DNA of 55,543 nt from a bacterium (GTDB lineage Bacteria > Patescibacteriota > Saccharimonadia > Saccharimonadales > UBA4665): positions 1 through 55,543 of the forward strand of contig JAJZMC010000008.1 in the NCBI GenBank assembly GCA_021803105.1. Reading direction: 5' to 3'. The notes under the pieces were generated by a model. It was not told where the DNA came from. It ran no database searches and was given only the letters and a program-made list of their open reading frames with translations. Position 1 is the stretch's first letter. Each line of letters starts with the position of its first letter. A program made the translations under genes and the position numbers. Of the stretch, positions 21,342-55,543 are shown in pieces.

Positions 21342-21382
21342 TCTTGGAGGTCTATTGTAATGTTTATGAAATCGAACTAGCA
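21342..21382 (+). repeat. beta repeat copy 2
   Basis: TCTTGGAGGTCTATTGTAAT then GTTTATGAAATCGAACTAG; aligns with beta copies 1 and 3, with one gap. Sits between the DUF2268 gene and the TA pair. Nothing else is evident in the 247-bp gap 21224-21470. Confidence 0.5.
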
Positions 21383-21470
21383 GTTCACCAAGGACAATTA
21401 TTTATTTCAGAGTCTTTATGTAAATCTATTGCAACTAAACTAAGGCTTCATCCAGCGGTTTTATTATAAT

Positions 21471-21731
21471 TTAACTGTATAGCTGACTATGGGTACCGAT
21501 TAGACCAAAGATTATCAAGTCTTCACCTCGTTTTATATACAAAGCTCGTAAATCTCCACTAACGTTCATACTCCAATATCCAGCAAATTTACCTTTAAGT
21601 GGATGGATTCTAAGCTTTGGATTAATTGGGTCAAGTGCAAATAAATGAACACTCTCATCAAATTGTTGCTGAAATTTCTTAGGCAGTTTCTTATACTGCT
21701 TCTTAAATTTTGGCATGTATTGAAAAGTCAT
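21471..21731 (-). CDS. RelE/YafQ-type mRNA interferase toxin
   Basis: 86 residues with the RelE-superfamily pattern: KFKKQYKKLPKKFQQQFDE helices, HPLKGKFAGYWSMNVSGDLRALY (the conserved 'L-G-W-i-gdlRl-Y' core) and a C-terminal GTHSQLY. Such toxins cut mRNA on the ribosome. It follows the RelB/DinJ-like antitoxin by 5 nt. The short length and HSQLY end suit YafQ more than ParE. Confidence 0.87.
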   Translation of the reverse strand: MTFQYMPKFKKQYKKLPKKFQQQFDESVHLFALDPINPKLRIHPLKGKFAGYWSMNVSGDLRALYIKRGEDLIIFGLIGTHSQLYS

Positions 21732-21736
21732 GACCT

Positions 21737-22009
21737 CTACCTTTTAAGATCAGCCAGAAAGTCATCTATGTTATCAAACTTCTTGCTAACTTTACCTGCC
21801 TTTAGGTCTGCCTCAATCTGTGTTATCAAACCTTCTAGCTTGGGAGTCATCGGCTCAGGTGAATAAAGTTCAATACGTCTAGTTGACGCAACCTGACGTA
21901 GGTAAGAATTAACAAGTGTACTCAGCGTTAAGCCAGCACTTTTAGCAACTTCCTGTGCAGAAATCTTAACATCTTTATCTAATTTTACACTAATAACTGT
22001 ACTGTTCAT
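21737..22009 (-). CDS. RelB/DinJ-type antitoxin
   Basis: 90 residues: N-terminal ribbon-helix-helix (STVISVKLDKDVKISAQEVAKSAGLTLSTL reads as strand, helix, helix) typical of RelB/DinJ, then a charged C-terminal arm that would wrap the toxin. First gene of the operon, as usual. Its promoter carries an 8-bp perfect inverted repeat, a likely self-repression site. The ATG is 7 nt after the -10 box, with no SD. Confidence 0.86.
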   Translation of the reverse strand: MNSTVISVKLDKDVKISAQEVAKSAGLTLSTLVNSYLRQVASTRRIELYSPEPMTPKLEGLITQIEADLKAGKVSKKFDNIDDFLADLKR

Positions 22010-22016
22010 ACTACCA

Positions 22017-22046
22017 AATATATACCCTGTAGGTATATACTGTCAA
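22017..22046 (-). promoter_or_regulatory. TA promoter with palindromic operator
   Basis: Minus strand: TTGACA (22041-22046), 18-bp spacer, TATATT (22017-22022), 7 nt to ATG. TATATACC-N5-GGTATATA (22019-22039) fills the spacer and overlaps the -10, suitable for binding a ribbon-helix-helix antitoxin dimer. Confidence 0.78.
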
Positions 22047-22050
22047 GTCT

Positions 22051-22197
22051 TTAATGGAGGGCCCTTAAGGAAATAAGTTATATACTTTCATCCAGGAACT
22101 CCTTTAGATGGAGAGTACTTCTGGATAATTCAATATAGGCAAGAGCAGCTTAGTAATAAAAGATTGAGTTCTATATATTCCTAGTTGGAGTTATAGA
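22051..22197 (+). repeat. alpha repeat copy 3
   Basis: Begins TTAATGGAGGGCCCTTAAGG; TGGAGGGCCC equals the tRNA-Lys 3' end and GGGCCCTTAAGG equals that gene's 5' border (23719-23730). Then TAAGTTATATACTTTCATCC, hairpin centre CCAGGAACTCC/GGAGAGTACTTCTGG, ATAGGCAAGAG and TATATTCCTAGTT. The 345-bp gene-free stretch 22010-22354 holds the TA promoter, this repeat and beta copy 3. Confidence 0.8.
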
Positions 22198-22264
22198 GTT
22201 AATTTAATAGCCTAGTAATATTTGCTTTTTTAGTTGTATTAACTTTCTGGCGCTGAAATTAACA

Positions 22265-22312
22265 TGGAAAGACTGAGGGGCCATTGTAGAAGCTGTAGCA
22301 AGCGCTATTAAG
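22265..22312 (+). repeat. beta repeat copy 3
   Basis: GGAAAGACTGAGGGGCCATT then GTAGAAGCTGTAGCAAGCGC. The first part also resembles the tRNA-Lys 3' flank (GGAAAAGACTGGAGGGCCCA at 23640-23659). Lies between alpha copy 3 and the VOC gene. Confidence 0.6.
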
Positions 22313-22354
22313 CAAGCGAAGCGCGTTATATATCGTTGACTAACCAATAGCAGT

Positions 22355-22732
22355 CTAAGTATCTGGTGAAGTAGACTGTAGGACAATACCATTGCCATCA
22401 GGGTCGTCGAAGGTTACGAATCTTCCCCAAGGCTGTTCTTGAATACCGCCTTCAATTTTAACGCCATTATTTTCCAGTGCTGCTACATCACTCTCTAGGT
22501 CTTTAGTTTCTAATACTAGTCCTTTCATCGAACCTGGCTTCATGGTGTCAAACCATGTTACGAAAGTAATTGAAGTTTCTGCATTTCTTGGTTTAACTTC
22601 AACCCATCGCTGGTCAGGCCCCATCGGGTTATCACGAACCAGCTCAAAGCCGAGTTTATTGATATAAAAATCCTTGGCTGATTCTTGGTCGGCAACAGGT
22701 AAAGATAGTAGTTTAATTTGCGATATATTCAT
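22355..22732 (-). CDS. VOC (glyoxalase/bleomycin-resistance fold) protein
   Basis: 125 residues with two beta-alpha-beta-beta-beta modules: IKLLSLPVADQESAKDFYIN-KLGFELV in the first and GLVLETKDLESDVAALENNGVKI with FVTFDDPDGNGIVLQ in the second. VOC proteins are metal-dependent lyases, dioxygenases or binding proteins; the substrate cannot be inferred. A clear SD (AAAGGAGG) precedes the ATG, unlike most genes here. Less AT-rich than the core genes, consistent with recent acquisition. Single gene between beta copy 3 and alpha copy 4. Confidence 0.85.
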   Translation of the reverse strand: MNISQIKLLSLPVADQESAKDFYINKLGFELVRDNPMGPDQRWVEVKPRNAETSITFVTWFDTMKPGSMKGLVLETKDLESDVAALENNGVKIEGGIQEQPWGRFVTFDDPDGNGIVLQSTSPDT

Positions 22733-22780
22733 TTATCCTCCTTTTAGGTATAAGAAGTTTTGCATTAGTATACCATCAAA

Positions 22781-22885
22781 TTGGAGGCCCACCAAAGAAG
22801 TAAGTTATATATTTTTGTAGAGGAATTCCTTAGATGGAGAGCATTTCTGGATAACGCTTATAGACAAGAAAGACATATAAGAAGA
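22781..22885 (+). repeat. alpha repeat copy 4
   Basis: TTGGAGGCCCACCAAAGAAG then TAAGTTATATATTTTTG, GAATTCCTTAGATGGAGAGC, TTTCTGGATAACGC, ATAGACAAGAAAG. Similar to copies 2 and 3 but with a weaker hairpin. Separates the VOC and SpoU segments. Confidence 0.7.
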
Positions 22886-22915
22886 CAGGACGAACTATAT
22901 TATCAGTAATAATTA

Positions 22916-23545
22916 TTAGCGATTTGGTTTAATAAACTCGTCCCAGGACTGCATTTTTTTAGCTGCCAACCTTTTGGGCTTAAAGCGAGCCTTATTATGT
23001 TCAAAAATATAACGTAGTCGCTGGTAGCTAATATGACTTAGGATAATTCCTGTACTCGTACCTAGGTTTAAGCTTTCCATAACACCACCCATAGGAATTT
23101 GAATACATAAATCAGCAGCATTAGATGCGTCTTCTGATACCCCCTTGGATTCATTACCAAACCAGACAGCAAGCTTTTTTTGAGTGAAAGTTTCTTCATA
23201 TAAATTAACGTTCACCTTACTCTTAAGATGCGAAGAGGTAACCGCTATGGTGTAGTTGTTATTTCGTAAATGCTTGATACAATCAGTGGCTGTTTTGAAA
23301 CGTTTCACAAATACCCACTTGTTAGCTCCAACGCTAACGTTCTTCAGGTGTTTATTGGTGCGTGAAGTTTCAAAATCACGAACAATATCATTTTCGCCAA
23401 TGACATAAAGTTTCTCAATGCCAAAAGCTGAAATGTTTCTCATTGCTGAGGCAATGTTAACAATGTCTTTTGGGTTTTCAAGAACGCAAATAAAGTATTT
23501 ATTCTGCAGATGCTTTACTTGCCTAATCCTATCTCTTATGGGCAT
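22916..23545 (-). CDS. SpoU/TrmH-family RNA 2'-O-methyltransferase
   Basis: 209 residues with SPOUT knot motifs: motif 1 LENPKDIVNIASAMRNISAFG (Asn and Arg contacts), motif 2 LAVWFGNESKGVSEDA, motif 3 CIQIPMGGVMESLNLGTSTG. Such enzymes methylate ribose 2'-OH in tRNA (TrmH, Gm18) or rRNA using SAM; which RNA is not clear. Lies between alpha copy 4 and tRNA-Lys, the segment nearest the tRNA. Base composition is less AT-rich than the neighbouring core. Confidence 0.85.
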   Translation of the reverse strand: MPIRDRIRQVKHLQNKYFICVLENPKDIVNIASAMRNISAFGIEKLYVIGENDIVRDFETSRTNKHLKNVSVGANKWVFVKRFKTATDCIKHLRNNNYTIAVTSSHLKSKVNVNLYEETFTQKKLAVWFGNESKGVSEDASNAADLCIQIPMGGVMESLNLGTSTGIILSHISYQRLRYIFEHNKARFKPKRLAAKKMQSWDEFIKPNR

Positions 23546-23647
23546 AACAGATGAAGTATAGCAAAAAATGCAAAAAGATGCACTGGATGTAAGTCGGGGT
23601 TATAGATATAAACTAAATTACTAATGCATAAAATAACAGGAAAAGAC

Positions 23648-23724
23648 TGGAGGGCCCAGTGGGACTTGAACCCACGACACCCTGCTTAAAAGGCAGGTGC
23701 TCTAACCGGCTGAGCTATGGGCCC
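23648..23724 (-). tRNA. tRNA-Lys (TTT)
   Basis: Cloverleaf with encoded CCA: acceptor GGGCCCA/TGGGCCC, anticodon stem CCTGC/GCAGG with loop CTTTTAA, T arm GTGGG-TTCAAGT-CCCAC. The discriminator base is U (A in E. coli tRNA-Lys). The acceptor GGGCCC is self-complementary. Its 3' end (plus-strand TGGAGGGCCCA) recurs in degenerate form at the borders of the segments to its left. Confidence 0.93.
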
Positions 23725-42804: not shown

Positions 42805-43158
42805 TTTTTTCTGATTAGGAATAGATAATTAATATAAATAATTTTTAATATTTTGTAATTTTAATTATTTAATTTCGTTTTATAATACTAATAGTTACGA
42901 AGGTTCAATAAGGGTACATGTTATTATGAACTTTTCAAAATATTTTTGATTTTATTAGTTTTAGTGTCTCTCATATTGTAATACTAATATATTTAGTGTT
43001 TATCATGGTACCCCCTATTTGATATGTTCAGAAGAAATTATTATCAGATAATTGCAGCTTTAGCCAAAGAAGTACTACTGGTGAATCAGCATTGAGTTAG
43101 TTTTCTACTATTTTTTGTACAGCCTAAGGGTAATTTTTATAGTTAGGTTGAAGCTAAC
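42805..43158. other. gene-free stretch with far border of tRNA-Arg islet
   Basis: 354 bp with no convincing ORF. It holds an imperfect hairpin (AAGGTTCA at 42899-42906 with TGAACTTT near 42927-42934), perhaps a PAP2 terminator, and the tRNA-end copy at 43005-43014. The right part (43015-43158) is islet DNA with no visible feature. Confidence 0.5.
43005..43014 (-). repeat. copy of tRNA-Arg(UCU) 3' end (att-like)
   Basis: ATGGTACCCC is identical to 43853-43862, the CCA-containing 3' end of tRNA-Arg, in the same orientation. The BrnT/BrnA-type TA pair lies between. Consistent with a left border made by insertion at the tRNA end. Confidence 0.55.
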
Positions 43159-43440
43159 TTATTTGTTAGCTGCCATAAGTTCTTCGTCAACCTTTTCGCT
43201 TAGATAAACCTTCATTAATGACTGGTAGGGGACGCCTTTTTGATTTGCTAAAACTTTAATATGAGCAAGCAATGGAGCGGGTAGTCTCATTGAAATTGAT
43301 TCAGAAGACAACTTAAGATTAGGGAATATGGTCTCCTCGGCTTTAGACCAGTCTATATAGTCAGTAGTACTATGAGTATCCCAAAATTCTGCCTCTTCTT
43401 TGTCGTTTTTAAAGTCTGGAATTTTTTTAAGCTTCTTCAT
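43159..43440 (-). CDS. BrnA/CopG-type antitoxin
   Basis: 93 residues: charged N-terminal arm with AEFWDTHSTTDYIDWSKAE (toxin-binding region of this family), then SSESISMRLPAPLLAHIKVLANQKGVPYQSLM, a ribbon-helix-helix. Its start overlaps the toxin's 3' end by 14 nt, and the toxin comes first, the normal BrnT-BrnA order. Confidence 0.85.
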   Translation of the reverse strand: MKKLKKIPDFKNDKEEAEFWDTHSTTDYIDWSKAEETIFPNLKLSSESISMRLPAPLLAHIKVLANQKGVPYQSLMKVYLSEKVDEELMAANK

Positions 43441-43723
43441 ATTGTTTCCTCTCCTTTCTATCCATATCTCTTATAGATATGATTCTTATTTCCTCTCTTC
43501 TAAGTGTAAAAGTGACCTGTAATCTTCTCTTATTTTTTGTTTGCCCTAAACCATGATAGTGTTGCTCTTTATCGGAAGAGTGCCTGATGTCTTTGCTTGT
43601 CAAGAAAGGTCTTTGTGTAAATATTTCTTCTGCTTCTTGGGTAGTCACATTATGCTTTATAAGGTTCTTACGAATATTGCCTGTGTCCCACTGGAATGTG
43701 ATTGTTTTAGGCAATATCCTCAT
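43427..43723 (-). CDS. BrnT-family toxin
   Basis: 98 residues matching BrnT ribonuclease-like toxins: TFQWDTGNIRKNLIKHNVTTQEAEEIF, then RRLQVTFTLRREEIRIISIRDMDRKERKQYE, the two conserved ends of the family. A consensus promoter (43730-43758) precedes it by 6 nt, giving a leaderless mRNA. Confidence 0.87.
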   Translation of the reverse strand: MRILPKTITFQWDTGNIRKNLIKHNVTTQEAEEIFTQRPFLTSKDIRHSSDKEQHYHGLGQTKNKRRLQVTFTLRREEIRIISIRDMDRKERKQYEEA

Positions 43724-43729
43724 CGTTAA

Positions 43730-43758
43730 AGTATATTCTTAGTATATACATTTGTCAA
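43730..43758 (-). promoter_or_regulatory. promoter of BrnT/BrnA operon
   Basis: Minus strand: TTGACA (43753-43758), 17-bp spacer, TATACT (43730-43735), 6 nt to ATG. On the plus strand AGTATAT occurs twice (43730 and 43741), a possible operator. Confidence 0.75.
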
Positions 43759-43788
43759 GAGTTTAACTGACCATTCCTAGCTAATCCC

Positions 43789-43806
43789 CTAGAGGATTCG
43801 AACAGA
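43789..43806 (-). other. tRNA T-arm-like remnant
   Basis: CTAGAGGATTCGAACAG resembles the T arm of a minus-strand tRNA (GTTCGAATCC core) but lacks the rest. It lies between the BrnT promoter and tRNA-Arg, similar to remnants at 20353 and 55352. Confidence 0.4.
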
Positions 43807-43853
43807 TTAGAGTTAAATGAACAGGGAACTTTTGACAGAGGTAGTTGCACAGA

Positions 43854-45726: not shown

Positions 45727-45995
45727 ATTCTAAAAACTTATTAAAACACATATTGCCAATTCTATTAATTGGTTTAATTTTACCAATGTTTATATTAGGT
45801 AATAATATTAAGATTAAATCATTTCGACATTTTGTTTTATCACCCATTTTAGTAATATCACAAAAAGATAATAGTGGTTTTGTACTTAGAACCAATTATA
45901 AAAATAATTTAATTAATAATAATTTACAGTTATATAAAAAAATAAATAAAACTGTGAAATATTTTGTGTTAGAAATTAAAGCTCAAAACAATTAA
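45714..45995 (+). CDS. hypothetical small membrane protein
   Basis: 93 residues with one membrane helix (about 10-30) and a basic outer part. Overlaps the previous gene's end by 13 nt, so translational coupling is likely. No family recognised. Its stop codon is the first three bases of the tRNA-Gly end copy at 45993-46003. Confidence 0.55.
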   Translation: MEKLNSKNLLKHILPILLIGLILPMFILGNNIKIKSFRHFVLSPILVISQKDNSGFVLRTNYKNNLINNNLQLYKKINKTVKYFVLEIKAQNN

Positions 45996-46003
45996 TATGG
46001 TGC
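45993..46003 (-). repeat. copy of tRNA-Gly 3' end (att-like)
   Basis: TAATATGGTGC equals 46815-46825, which spans the 3' end of tRNA-Gly (its TGGTGC is the end of the CCA tail and acceptor). Same orientation. Marks the far border of the islet 46004-46814. Confidence 0.55.
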
Positions 46004-46026
46004 AGTGTTCTTAACAAAGTCAGAAC
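46001..46026. repeat. 26-bp direct repeat, left copy
   Basis: Identical over 26 bp to 46646-46671 (starts TGCAGTG, ends TCAGAAC). Contains the short inverted repeat GTTCT-N10-AGAAC. Directly abuts the tRNA-end copy. The two copies enclose exactly the RelE/Phd-type TA pair and its promoter. Confidence 0.9.
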
Positions 46027-46034
46027 CGGTTTAG

Positions 46035-46340
46035 TTATTTTTCAAGTAATCTAACGTAGTCAGATCTAGCATATAGAATACGCAGTATATAAACTTCCTG
46101 ATCAGTAACTCTATATATTATTAAGTAGTTATCTACTATTAAATACCTATAGTTATCCAGTTTGGTGTCTATCGTTTTTAATCCAGCACCAAGCTCCGGA
46201 AAGTCTGATAGCTTTTGTGATGCATGAAGTATTTTATCGGCTATGTTATGTGCAGCAATTGGATTACCTAAATCATTGCTAATATAGTTAAATAAGTCGG
46301 CCAGATCTTTCTCCGCTAAAGGAGTAAATATAATTTTCAT
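46035..46340 (-). CDS. RelE/ParE-family toxin
   Basis: 101 residues: KIIFTPLAEKDLADLFNYIS, KLSDFPELGAGL, NYRYLIVDNYLIIYRVTDQEVYILRILYARSDY, the ParE/RelE core with conserved 'YR-lv-nYlI-Y-v'. ATGA overlap with the antitoxin. A gyrase (ParE) or ribosome (RelE) target cannot be told from sequence. Confidence 0.88.
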   Translation of the reverse strand: MKIIFTPLAEKDLADLFNYISNDLGNPIAAHNIADKILHASQKLSDFPELGAGLKTIDTKLDNYRYLIVDNYLIIYRVTDQEVYILRILYARSDYVRLLEK

Positions 46341-46585
46341 AAACTTATATTATATTTTTTTGAGATCTGATCTAAAGAAATGCCATTATCCTTTAGGGAT
46401 TTCTCTCCTTTTTGTATTTCTTTTAGCAAGTTTTCTACAGTTTTCTTATAATCATAGTCGTCTATCTTAGAGATTACATAACTACCCCGGCCATTACGCG
46501 TGAGGTAGACTGGCTTATTTACGTCTACTTTATTTAAGACTTCAGTATAGTTACGTAAATCTGAAATAGGTAAAATATTTGGCAT
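46337..46585 (-). CDS. Phd/YefM-type antitoxin
   Basis: 82 residues from MPNILPISDLRNYTEVLNKV, the Phd/YefM N-terminal fold, with PVYLTRNGRGSYVISKIDDY. The longer frame to 46699 is rejected: an SD GGAGG sits about 9 nt before ATG 46583-46585 and a promoter at 46607-46635 lies inside the longer frame. Unlike the other TA operons here, this one has a leader and SD. Confidence 0.87.
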   Translation of the reverse strand: MPNILPISDLRNYTEVLNKVDVNKPVYLTRNGRGSYVISKIDDYDYKKTVENLLKEIQKGEKSLKDNGISLDQISKKYNISL

Positions 46586-46606
46586 AATTATATTCCTCCA
46601 ATAAGT

Positions 46607-46635
46607 ATTGTAGCAATATATGCGTGCGAATACAA
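46607..46635 (-). promoter_or_regulatory. promoter of Phd/RelE operon
   Basis: Minus strand: TTGTAT (46630-46635), 17-bp spacer, TACAAT (46607-46612). Start near 46600, leaving a short leader that carries GGAGG. Confidence 0.65.
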
Positions 46636-46645
46636 CAGCAGTTGT

Positions 46646-46671
46646 TGCAGTGTTCTTAACAAAGTCAGAAC
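46646..46671. repeat. 26-bp direct repeat, right copy
   Basis: Perfect partner of 46001-46026, 645 bp away. The stretch 46672-46814 between it and tRNA-Gly shows no gene. Confidence 0.9.
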
Positions 46672-46819
46672 GATAATTACTATTATTTAGAACTATCATC
46701 TCTTATGAGTGGCTACAACCGATGGCAAACAATGCTAAAGTATACGTGCCGAGCTGGAAAAGGTTAGAACCTCTCTCCGACAGATACAAAAAGTCTCAAA
46801 AGAGGCCTTGCGTCTAATA

Positions 46820-46894
46820 TGGTGCGGGTGGCGGGAATCGAACCCGCATTACCAGTTTGGAAAACTGGGATAATGACCATTATATGACACCCGC
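46820..46894 (-). tRNA. tRNA-Gly (TCC)
   Basis: Acceptor GCGGGTG/CACCCGC, anticodon stem CCAGT/ACTGG with loop TTTCCAA, T arm GCGGG-TTCGATT-CCCGC, encoded CCA. The discriminator is A, whereas E. coli tRNA-Gly has U. Bears the RelE/Phd islet on the 3' side. Confidence 0.94.
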
Positions 46895-46924: not shown

Positions 46925-48451
46925 TTATATATCATGAAGAATAGTTATTCTGGCACCTAGATTGTTTAATCTATCAGCCAAATCTTCATAGCCTCGATTA
47001 ATCGTATAGACGTTTCTAAGTAATGAGGTACCGTTGGTGGCTAACATACCAATTAATAATAGGCTAGCTGGTCTTAGTGCAGGCGGACAGACAACTTCTG
47101 CGCTTGAAAACTTAGTTGGTCCAGTAATAAAAACTCGATGGGGGTCAGCTAATTCAATCGTTGCTCCAATTTTTGTTAGTTCAGTATAATAGATAGCTCG
47201 ATTTTCATACATCCAGTCATGTATTAGTGTTCTTCCTCTTGTGATACAAGCAATTAATACGAAATAAGGTATGTTGTCTGGATTAATACCTGGGTATAGG
47301 TTTGGATGAATTTTTTCTTCTAAAGCTTTTAGTGAATGATTGTGTGGAAAAATCGTAATATCACAAAGTTCAATCTCTCCATTATTTGCTTTATACGATG
47401 TTGATTTTTCATATTTTACACCCATTTTTGATAGTTTTAAGAGTTCTAGTGCTATCCATTGGTAAGGTACACGTTTAATCGTAATCTTTGAATTTGTAAT
47501 TATTGCGGAAGTAATAAAAAACATTGCTTCAATTGGATCTTCAGTTGGATAATAAGTAATATTTTTTTTAATTTTTTCTGTTATGCCTTTTATTTTAAGG
47601 AACGGAGTACCGATGCCTTCTATACTAATTCCAAGTTTTCTCAAAAAATATGATAAATCTTGTACCATATAATCACCACTAGCTCCATGGATTTGAATTG
47701 TTTGGTTAAGTTTCGCTGCCGCTAATAAGACGTTATTGGTGACAGTATTACCAGCTTCGTATAAAACAACCTCCTTAGGTATTTTCTTCTTAACATTAAT
47801 TTGATAGTTACCTTTAGATGCTTTTATGCTTAAACCAAATTCTTCTAATGCAAATAAATGTGGTGTTACAGTTCTTTCTCCTAATTTACAACCCCCAGCA
47901 TAAGGAATTTTAAAGTTTGCATTATCATGCATTAAAACTCCAATTAGCATTAAAACGGATCTTGTTTTTTTAGCGGCAACCGCATCAAGATTATTAAGTT
48001 TTAACTTTTCGGGTCGTTTAATTTCTAGATCATTATCATTTATCCATTTAACACTTACTCCAATACTTTCAAGTATTTCAATAATTCTATAAACTTCTTC
48101 GATTTTCGGGAAAGATTTAAAATGTGTTACACCGTAATTTAATAAACTAGCACATAAAAGAGCAACAGCTGCATTTTTACTTGTTTTTAATGATATTTCA
48201 CCTTTAAGTTTTGTATTACCTTCAATTCTTAAATTAACTTCATTGTTACTACTAATACTTAATAATTGTTTGTTTAAAACATCACTTATCCTACCTAGAG
48301 TTTCTATACTTAAATTTTGCTTACCATGTTCTATACGATTGACAGCTGATTGTGAAGTAGATAATCGTCTAGCAAATTCTGCCTGAGTTAAACCACGTTC
48401 TTGTCTTATTTGAGCAATTAACTGACCTATTTTAGTGTTAATTTGATTCAT
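46925..48451 (-). CDS. murA: MurA with N-terminal XRE HTH
   Basis: 508 residues. Residues about 5-62 form an XRE helix-turn-helix (IGQLIAQIRQERGLTQAEFARRLSTSQSAVNRIEHGKQ). Residues about 72-508 are UDP-GlcNAc enolpyruvyl transferase: KTSKNAAVALL (catalytic Lys), YAGGCKLGERTV (the Cys that fosfomycin attacks, in GGC) and VCPPALRPASLLLIGML. First committed step of peptidoglycan synthesis. Full-length MurA is about 420 residues, so the HTH is a true extra. A TATAAT box ends 10 nt before the ATG. The fusion could let the enzyme bind DNA. Confidence 0.9.
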   Translation of the reverse strand: MNQINTKIGQLIAQIRQERGLTQAEFARRLSTSQSAVNRIEHGKQNLSIETLGRISDVLNKQLLSISSNNEVNLRIEGNTKLKGEISLKTSKNAAVALLCASLLNYGVTHFKSFPKIEEVYRIIEILESIGVSVKWINDNDLEIKRPEKLKLNNLDAVAAKKTRSVLMLIGVLMHDNANFKIPYAGGCKLGERTVTPHLFALEEFGLSIKASKGNYQINVKKKIPKEVVLYEAGNTVTNNVLLAAAKLNQTIQIHGASGDYMVQDLSYFLRKLGISIEGIGTPFLKIKGITEKIKKNITYYPTEDPIEAMFFITSAIITNSKITIKRVPYQWIALELLKLSKMGVKYEKSTSYKANNGEIELCDITIFPHNHSLKALEEKIHPNLYPGINPDNIPYFVLIACITRGRTLIHDWMYENRAIYYTELTKIGATIELADPHRVFITGPTKFSSAEVVCPPALRPASLLLIGMLATNGTSLLRNVYTINRGYEDLADRLNNLGARITILHDI

Positions 48452-53536: not shown

Positions 53537-54349
53537 TTAAATCAAAATGTTCTGCTTAATGAGTTGATAGCATCCATAAATTACAGCTTCTTCTGGTTTT
53601 TGGGCTGATTGAACGGTTGGTTTCGGAATTAAAGGATCTTTTAGATTTTGAATAGTTTGATTGATATATTTACCGTATTGTTTAAAATAAGTTCCGATAC
53701 TGCCACCAATGATAATTATGTCTGGGCGAATTATTGGGAGAAGTATTAGGATTCCTTCAGTTATATTATTAGCAATATTTATCCATGTATTTTCATCTGT
53801 TATATCTTTGGCATATTTGCCAAAAGTTTGAGTAATAGCTTGCCCAGAAGCGAAAGACTCCCAGATAATTTTTTGATTATTATGATTTAAAATCATATGG
53901 CCTGGTTCCATGTCAATTAATGATTGATCTATTTTTTGATTTATTATTAGAGAACCACCTATGCCAGTTGAGACAGTAAGATATAAGATGCGCGAAAATT
54001 TATCTTTTAATAAAATAGCTTCTGATAAACCGGCTAGATTTGCATCATTATCAATTAAGACTGGGCAATTTGTTATATTACTAATATCTTTTTTTGGATT
54101 AACATTATGCCATTTTAATTTTCCTCCACCTATTAAACGATAAGTTGTTCGATTGATTGTTTCGGGGAAGGCAGCTGCCACATATTCGTAATTTAATTCG
54201 CCCAGTAAAGTGATATTTTTTGTTAAAATTGATAAAAAAATATTATATTTTTTAGGTGTTTCAAATTTAATCATATTTTTTAATTGACCAGAAGTATTAA
54301 AACTGGCAATTAAAGTTTTCGTTCCACCAACATCTATAGTTAAATACAT
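53537..54349 (-). CDS. ROK-family sugar kinase
   Basis: 270 residues: LTIDVGGTKTLIASF (phosphate 1), VLIDNDANLAGLSEA (catalytic Asp), LTVSTGIGGSLI and MEPGHMIL. ROK kinases phosphorylate glucose, N-acetylglucosamine or similar sugars. The usual zinc motif CxCGxxGC is absent here (NHNNQKIIWE instead), and there is no HTH, so not a repressor. A -10 TATGAT (54356-54361, minus) ends 6 nt before the ATG. Confidence 0.85.
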   Translation of the reverse strand: MYLTIDVGGTKTLIASFNTSGQLKNMIKFETPKKYNIFLSILTKNITLLGELNYEYVAAAFPETINRTTYRLIGGGKLKWHNVNPKKDISNITNCPVLIDNDANLAGLSEAILLKDKFSRILYLTVSTGIGGSLIINQKIDQSLIDMEPGHMILNHNNQKIIWESFASGQAITQTFGKYAKDITDENTWINIANNITEGILILLPIIRPDIIIIGGSIGTYFKQYGKYINQTIQNLKDPLIPKPTVQSAQKPEEAVIYGCYQLIKQNILI

Positions 54350-54435: not shown

Positions 54436-54512
54436 GCACCTGTAGCTCAGTGGATTAGAGTGTCTGGCTTCGAACCAGAAGGTCGCAGGTTCGAATCCTG
54501 CCAGGTGTACCA
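54436..54512 (+). tRNA. tRNA-Arg (TCG)
   Basis: Acceptor GCACCTG/CAGGTGT (G1-U72), anticodon stem TCTGG/CCAGA with loop CTTCGAA, T arm GCAGG-TTCGAAT-CCTGC, A73 and CCA. Bears the AbrB/PIN islet on the 3' side. Confidence 0.94.
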
Positions 54513-54568: not shown

Positions 54569-54805
54569 ATGAATACAGATGTAGTAACACTCTCCAGTAA
54601 ATATCAAGTAGTAATACCTAAGATGGCTCGACAAAAACTAGGTCTTAATAAGCCTAATGGTCAACGCTTTAAAGTTAAGCGGGTTTCCAATACTGAAATT
54701 GTCTTTCGTAAAGACAAATCTCTTGATGACTATCTTGGACAATACAGTGACGCCTTTCCCGATAACGCCACTGCCAAGCTCAGACAAATGAGAAACAAAG
54801 AGTGA
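54569..54805 (+). CDS. AbrB/MazE-type (SpoVT fold) antitoxin
   Basis: 78 residues: MNTDVVTLSSKYQVVIPKMA, the swapped-hairpin AbrB DNA-binding fold (VTLSSKYQVVIPK-R-LGL), followed by a charged arm. I start at ATG 54569 because the longer frame from TTG 54533 begins on the -35 box. First gene of the TA operon; the toxin follows after 16 nt. Confidence 0.85.
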   Translation: MNTDVVTLSSKYQVVIPKMARQKLGLNKPNGQRFKVKRVSNTEIVFRKDKSLDDYLGQYSDAFPDNATAKLRQMRNKE

Positions 54806-54821
54806 GAAGAATAAACAGACA

Positions 54822-55235
54822 ATGTTAGTTGCCCTAGATAGCAATATATTTATTGCAGCTCTATCCTCGAAAGAAAAGCATAGCCTAAATGCTCAAAAAT
54901 TGTTACGTGATATATCTATTGGAAAAAATCAAGCTATAGCTTCTTCAATAGTTTATGGTGAAGTTTACAGCATTCATCTATCTGATCGACCTTTAGACCT
55001 CGTGGACTTCTTTTCACATATAGATAATCTGGCGACCATTGCAGCAGACAATAATATTTGCTTAAAAACTGGGGAACTTAGACTAGAATATGGCCATAAA
55101 TTAAAACTACCTGATGCCATGCATTTGGCTACTGCGTTAATAAACAAAGCTGAATTGTTTATAACAAACGATGAGTTATTGGCAAAAATATCTCAAAAGT
55201 TAATACCAACAAAAACACTATCACAGCTAACCTAA
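54822..55235 (+). CDS. PIN-domain toxin (VapC family)
   Basis: 137 residues: MLVALDSNIFIAAL (Asp6), SSIVYGEVYS (Glu), LPDAMHLATALINKAELFITND (two Asp) give the four-acid PIN site. RNase toxin, target unknown (often tRNA or rRNA). Partner of the AbrB-type antitoxin. Not closely like the PIN protein at 191-625. Confidence 0.87.
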   Translation: MLVALDSNIFIAALSSKEKHSLNAQKLLRDISIGKNQAIASSIVYGEVYSIHLSDRPLDLVDFFSHIDNLATIAADNNICLKTGELRLEYGHKLKLPDAMHLATALINKAELFITNDELLAKISQKLIPTKTLSQLT

Positions 55236-55543
55236 ATTTTATAATTATTGTGTTATAGACGTTTTTGATTGTAGAAATTGTTTATGTTTGGTGGCTATGT
55301 CCTATCATACAGACATTGTAAAAGATGACTAATTAATGATCGAGACAACAAAAGTGTTCGAACTTCATCTAAGACGGTGTACCAAATACTATAGTGAGTA
55401 AGTGTATATAAGTAAGTGTTAACCCAAAATTAAAATAGTAGCATCACAAATTTAAAACTGGAGTTGTTTTGGTGTTGGTATCTGTTGGTAGCCAAGAACC
55501 TGGTCGTTTCTAAGAAACCTTACTTCGGTTGTTATTCGGTTAG
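55236..55543. other. gene-free stretch with far border of tRNA-Arg(UCG) islet
   Basis: 308 bp with no convincing ORF or RNA. It holds the tRNA-end copy described separately; the DNA beyond 55386 shows nothing I can name. Confidence 0.5.
55352..55385 (+). repeat. degenerate tRNA-Arg(UCG) 3' end (att-like)
   Basis: GTGTTCGAAC (T-loop-like) is followed 15 nt on by GGTGTACCAA (55376-55385), identical to 54504-54513, the tRNA-Arg acceptor end plus CCA. Same orientation; the TA pair lies between. A border left by insertion at the tRNA 3' end is likely. Confidence 0.6.

Follow-up and report, generated by a model that had tools for sequence, protein, structure and literature searches.

The stretch of DNA analysed here, referred to as the window, comprises 55,543 nucleotides from a bacterium of the order Saccharimonadales (contig JAJZMC010000008.1, assembly GCA_021803105.1). 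At a tRNA-Gly(TCC) gene on the minus strand (46820-46894), which is the integration target discussed below, the window carries an islet with two nested pairs of repeats. The outer pair is an 11-mer (TAATATGGTGC) found at 45993-46003 and 46815-46825, which matches the 3' end of the tRNA-Gly. The inner pair is a perfect 26-mer (TGCAGTGTTCTTAACAAAGTCAGAAC) at 46001-46026 and 46646-46671, flanking genes for a ParE/RelE toxin and a Phd-like antitoxin, both on the minus strand. A previous sequence-only reading had described the outer pair as copies of the tRNA end and the inner pair as a perfect repeat enclosing the RelE/Phd operon. Both descriptions proved exact, with the small correction that the left 11-mer and the left 26-mer share three bases. 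The 26-mers are themselves nested in a 29-nt repeat with one mismatch (45998-46026 and 46643-46671). The toxin (46035-46340, 101 aa) matches Pfam PF05016 (E=8e-19) and NCBIfam RelE_StbE, in both cases above cut-off, and the Phd/YefM-like antitoxin (46337-46585) matches PF02604 with an E-value of 8e-6, which is below the curated cut-off. The two are encoded together in one operon, as expected of a type II system, and represent a predicted toxin-antitoxin pair. Farther towards the tRNA, tblastn revealed a relic of the 3' end of a large serine recombinase (LSR) gene on the plus strand (46707-46822), the frame of which is broken and the last stretch of which, SIRAELEKVRTSLRQIQKVSKEALRLI-W, enters the tRNA-Gly antisense. 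Inspection of the sequence directly 3' of the tRNA-Gly showed an imperfect hairpin followed by a T-run (46787-46807, minus strand), a candidate replacement terminator for this tRNA gene.

The sequence-only reading had also placed the insertion at the tRNA-Gly, and this is borne out by unoccupied loci in five congeneric genomes (G001-G005). In these genomes the neighbours are kept in the order MurA-like gene, tRNA-Gly, zinc-ribbon gene, and the distance from the tRNA-Gly 3' end to the zinc-ribbon gene is 251-281 bp, versus 1094 bp in the window, 822 of which are taken up by the islet. The same interval measures 1057 bp in G006, where it holds another cassette, with a FitA-like/PIN pair. Five empty genomes and two differently filled ones thus indicate that the tRNA-Gly is an insertion site which is unoccupied in most of the genus. 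The MurA-like protein (46925-48451), which adjoins the tRNA-Gly throughout the genus, starts with a helix-turn-helix-like stretch.

Within the whole 810-kb genome, the 25-nt core of the repeat occurs in exactly two copies at up to three mismatches (none for the reversed control), and the genome-wide search that had been suggested for the 26-mer returned the two copies at the islet only. Beyond this genome, the site pattern was found in 13 of the 93 genomes of the family, with no reversed-control matches, and several of these 13 genomes contain at least three tandem copies, a few hundred bases apart and in one orientation. A profile built from 33 sites retrieved 79 sites in the sequence stretches collected. 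Scored with a profile built from related sites, the two window copies reach 47.1 and 34.3, whereas ten shuffled windows gave 10.3 at most; the score of the left copy is partly by construction because the profile contains that copy itself. Where a tRNA lies on the expected side of a site, the closest one (Gly, Arg or Tyr) is on the opposite strand in 66 cases and on the same strand in none. The first bases of the site track the adjoining tRNA: agreement at position 4 is 0.94 versus 0.57 expected, and the total agreement was unreached in 10,000 shuffles (p<1e-4, to be taken as a guide only, since related sequences are non-independent). The constant part of the site translates in one frame into W[CY][ST][VI][LI]xxVRTxL, and 51% of single-base codon differences are synonymous in that frame versus 9-38% in the other five. 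An inverted repeat in the window 26-mer (GTTCT-N10-AGAAC) had suggested a palindromic recombinase site or a terminator. This suggestion does not hold in the wider set, where the left arm varies, the inverted repeat is not kept and conservation follows codon positions. A tRNA-like RNA structure of the site, which we had also considered, was dropped on seeing the codon pattern. Judged from its correspondence to the tails of full LSR elements, the 26-bp repeat is a displaced C-terminal tail of an LSR and, at the same time, the predicted P' half of an att site.

The putative source of such tails is provided by full LSR elements. LSR homologues are present in 133 of the 295 genomes of the order, and at 26 of the 30 best LSR loci the LSR frame enters the antisense 3' end of a tRNA via a Trp codon complementary to CCA. 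The tRNAs entered by LSR frames are those for Tyr, Gly, Trp, Arg, Gln, Ser, Lys, Asn, Ala and Leu. For instance, the LSR of G124 (579 aa, with Resolvase PF00239, Recombinase PF07508 and zinc-ribbon PF13408 domains) has a C-terminus that enters tRNA-Tyr antisense (...EEAICQE-WCRERDSNPRRR). The distal end was located for six LSR elements, roughly 8-11 kb off. All six distal ends start with 6-9 nt identical to the element's own tRNA, such as TGGCAGGGG for Trp, so that both junctions share a short identical core, and distal ends encode short tails that run to a stop, for example WCSVLNKVRTALLTYSIA, WCGILSEVRTAMLSYPTI and WQGVIEQVRTLLLAYQ. On the simplest reading, the attachment core would be part of the LSR gene's 3' end, and integration would trade the tail for antisense tRNA while the old tail stays at the distal end. 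In the phylogenetic tree, related LSRs at Tyr, Gly, Trp and Arg tRNAs form one clade, implying that the target isotype has changed repeatedly. We found no un-integrated, intact LSR gene ending in the proposed tail; an LSR search of viral contigs gave no match, and phage records contained distant LSRs only (<60% identity). In the window's own genome, which is 97% complete, no LSR of this clade was found, and the only LSR found there belongs to another clade and lies beside tRNA-Asn. There (locus L207, G000 contig C3, ~53728-54180), the junction into the antisense tRNA is crossed by a short ORF of its own that follows this 500-aa LSR, instead of by the LSR.

The nested repeats had been explained either by two insertion events or by core and arm parts of a single att site. 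The former is the case, and the core-and-arm alternative is not supported: each 26-mer marks the outer edge of its own unit. Two insertions make up the islet, namely unit A (45998-46642), with the ParE/RelE-Phd cassette, and unit B (46643-46819). The P' site of unit A (45998-46033, plus strand), at the outer edge of the islet, is composed of the tRNA-end copy TGGTGC and the LSR-tail-like sequence WCSVLNKVRTGL. From the TGG at 45998, unit A runs to 46642, the last base ahead of the next site, and unit alignment shows that its tRNA-side edge (46586-46642, minus strand), which includes the promoter region of the toxin-antitoxin pair, is conserved in G000, G040 and G124 as far as the following site. 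The following P' site, that of unit B (46643-46678, plus strand; CCSVLNKVRTII), has its Trp codon mutated from TGG to TGT. In G040, unit A lies behind tRNA-Tyr at 93% identity, its limits unchanged and its flanks unrelated, and G124 carries it twice in a tRNA-Tyr array at 89-90% identity; in both genomes the match spans from TGG to the next TGG. The unit A site in the window starts with TGGTGCAG, the tRNA-Tyr end, yet adjoins tRNA-Gly (TGGTGCGG). Whereas unit A encodes no LSR, unit B holds a broken LSR relic only: the frame reading into the tRNA at ATA TGG encodes the SIRAELEKVRTSLRQIQKVSKEALRLI-W stretch, the broken part ahead of it still reads EWLQPMANNAK, and the relic is 64% identical over 28 aa to the C-terminus of the G101 LSR (tblastn, E=7e-8). 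Unit B is an LSR element collapsed to its two ends. It is unusual for two P' copies to be identical, as they are in the window: sites of different units mostly show many synonymous differences, and unit A has other P' variants in other genomes. Recent exchange between the two copies, or the use of the same integrase, is possible.

The islet is not the only place in the window with such sites. A first pattern, restricted to TGGTGC, overlooked Lys-type and degenerate Arg-type sites, which were found by matching the 3' end of each tRNA itself. A second cassette lies at tRNA-Arg(TCG) (54436-54512, plus strand). Its cargo (54569-55235, plus strand) comprises a MazE/AbrB-like antitoxin (54569-54805) and a PIN toxin (54822-55235), and its P' site (55349-55384, minus strand; WYTVLDEVRTLL) begins with 9 nt of its own tRNA's 3' end. 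This MazE/PIN cassette is shared, at 88%, with G004 of the same genus (L138). A degenerate candidate P' site (43006-43041, plus strand; WYPLFDMFRRNY) contains a 9-nt copy of the end of tRNA-Arg(TCT), and between this tRNA and the degenerate site lies a BrnT/BrnA pair (43159-43723), recognised by BrnT/CopG Pfam matches; the region 43006-43853 is probably an old cassette. Sites of the Lys type mark the outer edges of a glyoxalase cassette (22055-22143, plus strand) and a SpoU methylase cassette (22782-22870, plus strand), the latter adjoining tRNA-Lys (23648-23724, minus strand). The tRNA-Lys array as a whole (21345-23647) includes the sites at 22055 and 22782 and a weak one at 21345, with a YafQ/RelB pair further out. 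Just beyond it is a DUF2268 protease gene, and DUF2268 is cassette cargo elsewhere. Lys-type sites have a consensus of their own (WRAIV.. type, TGGAGGGCCATCGTRGACGYTATYGCAAC), with five copies in G128 and three in G049 (loci L195 and L196), and different LSR clades therefore seem to have their own site families.

Across the genomes compared, which are largely fragmented assemblies, 70 site-to-next-site intervals have a median of ~0.7 kb, and nearly all are without an LSR. The strand of the tRNA carries 85 of the 107 cargo ORFs, and the top families among 93 cargo proteins are PIN (10), ParE (7), Phd (6) and MazE (4). No shared motif was found in the tRNA-side cassette edges. These edges are enriched in terminator-like hairpins (26 of 70, versus 10.8 in shuffles), which would help to end transcription of the tRNA. 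Besides unit A, two other LSR-less units recur in different genomes. One of them, a cassette with a DUF2268 protease, is present in G028 (in a Tyr array), G025 (at Arg-CCG) and G050 (at Arg-TCT), with copies that match exactly from the TGG and diverge in the last 40-odd bases beside the tRNA. The third recurring cassette is found in G051 and G106, at tRNA-Gly in both cases, and includes ParE/Phd in G051.

We consider it highly probable that the two units were stacked at the CCA end of tRNA-Gly through site-specific recombination by LSRs of this clade, which is widespread in the order, with the 26-mer as the stranded tail. Integration would join the LSR frame, at the Trp codon complementary to CCA, to the antisense tRNA, and the original C-terminal tail (W..V...VRT.L) would remain at the far junction together with the P' half-site. 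The targeting of tRNAs and the swap of tails can be read from the sequences themselves, as can the relic, the exact unit boundaries and the empty sites. Unit A would then represent an LSR-less cassette, reduced to a P' site, a toxin-antitoxin pair and a tRNA-side edge, that most likely moved as a circle while the LSR was supplied in trans, and the toxin-antitoxin pair may help it to persist through addiction. Serine integrases normally recognise both halves of attP, and the lack of a motif in the tRNA-side edges weakens the case for movement of the cassettes in trans. Such movement is something we infer. Also counting against the explanation are the failure to find an LSR of the clade in the window's genome, or an un-integrated LSR gene with the tail, and the identity of the two P' copies.

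Alternatively, the LSR-less units could be immobile scars, namely full LSR elements deleted down to the P' end plus a retained addiction module. Unit B, with its LSR relic, is exactly such a scar, and locus L124 also retains an LSR-like end beside tRNA-Arg. Moreover, the toxin-antitoxin families, which resist loss, are the commonest cargo, and tRNA-side edges without a conserved motif are also in line with scars. However, the three LSR-less units each appear in more than one genome with boundaries that match, in two cases behind different tRNAs, so that movement is needed after the loss of the LSR; of the cassette loci searched, the window alone yielded an LSR relic (E<=1e-3). We regard scars as the unlikely explanation of the LSR-less units, albeit the most credible of the alternatives; many units may indeed be scars with an addiction module, those recurring as wholes excepted.

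Recombinases other than an LSR fare much worse. No tyrosine recombinase other than Xer was found in the genome, and the site length (~29 nt) is close to that of dif, which could point to cassettes moved by the host Xer at dif-like sites, in the manner of pdif modules; yet the sites are non-palindromic, keep a single orientation to the tRNA and match the LSR gene tails of full elements, making this very improbable. The same Xer protein falls far below the cut-off for integron integrases, and the site is coding-like, does not keep across copies the inverted repeat that the paired R and L boxes of an attC fold would require and is anchored at a tRNA end rather than at attI. Tandem one-gene cassettes, mostly in one orientation (85/107 ORFs) and rich in toxin-antitoxin pairs, are reminiscent of a classical integron or of a CALIN, i.e. 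an attC array without an integrase, but we give that origin hardly any credence. Just as slight is the chance of a classical tRNA island whose tyrosine integrase was lost. Although the far junction bears a tRNA 3'-end copy like those of Islander islands (PMC4383910), the islet contains no tyrosine integrase, the remnant next to the tRNA comes from an LSR, and LSR tails match the site in its constant part.

Stacking by the LSR clade can be compared with known systems. Exchange of tails upon integration has been described at rumA, for streptococcal ICEs with a single serine integrase (PMC4701971). As in our elements, the att site lies in the 3' end of the LSR gene, the 3' part of which is swapped with that of the target, so that the C-terminus of the integrase changes. 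These ICEs, however, target a protein gene, whereas our elements enter tRNA genes of many isotypes at the CCA end, their LSRs take the new C-terminus from antisense tRNA, and arrays of LSR-less cassettes accumulate. Islander tRNA islands likewise have a tRNA 3' fragment at the far end and can occur in tandem arrays, but they use tyrosine integrases, and serine integrases aimed at tRNA genes were stated in 2014 to be unknown (PMC4383910). Integration-dependent immunity in mycobacteriophages (PMC9262239) also involves an attP inside a coding gene, an attB overlapping a tRNA and an altered C-terminus of a phage protein; there, the integrase is a tyrosine integrase and the altered protein is a repressor, not the integrase. 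With integrons and CALINs, the arrays share small tandem cassettes with one site each, a common orientation, a fixed anchor and toxin-antitoxin cargo, but they are without IntI, folded attC and attI, the sites being derived from an LSR gene tail and the anchor being a tRNA gene. Swapping of LSR tails is thus known, whereas a tRNA-targeting LSR family with integron-like arrays of LSR-less cassettes was not found in the open-licence literature searched, nor were such cassettes mentioned in the Saccharibacteria/Patescibacteria literature searched (open-licence only). More tentatively, and as something slightly less likely than not, we propose a serine-integrase counterpart of the integron. In it, tRNA 3' ends would be fixed points of capture for LSR-less cassettes that each end in a P' site, are moved in trans by LSR elements and build up into arrays, while every integration would give the integrase a C-terminus of antisense tRNA; that tail may toggle the enzyme from inserting to resting.

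Little is understood of how genes are taken up by Saccharibacteria and other tiny bacterial parasites, whose genomes are streamlined. With the stranded tail as its mark, the family of mobile elements that stacks small cassettes at tRNA ends in genomes of this type offers a simple sequence feature by which many small gene gains can be located at base precision. These gains are largely toxin-antitoxin pairs, which island finders based on tyrosine integrases would miss. The LSRs are also a clear case of serine integrases aimed at tRNAs, and the occurrence of close relatives at different isotypes makes them useful for studying and choosing integrase targets.

Two further loci deserve mention. At L070 (9627-11520, G000 contig C8), a methyltransferase-like gene and then a BrnT/BrnA-like pair occupy the stretch between a strong P' site and the contig end, and the contig has no tRNA beyond the site. 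The largest array seen, L061 (8965-14307, G028), has seven or more sites in tandem behind tRNA-Tyr, and its cargo includes a phosphatidylglycerol lysyltransferase-like gene.
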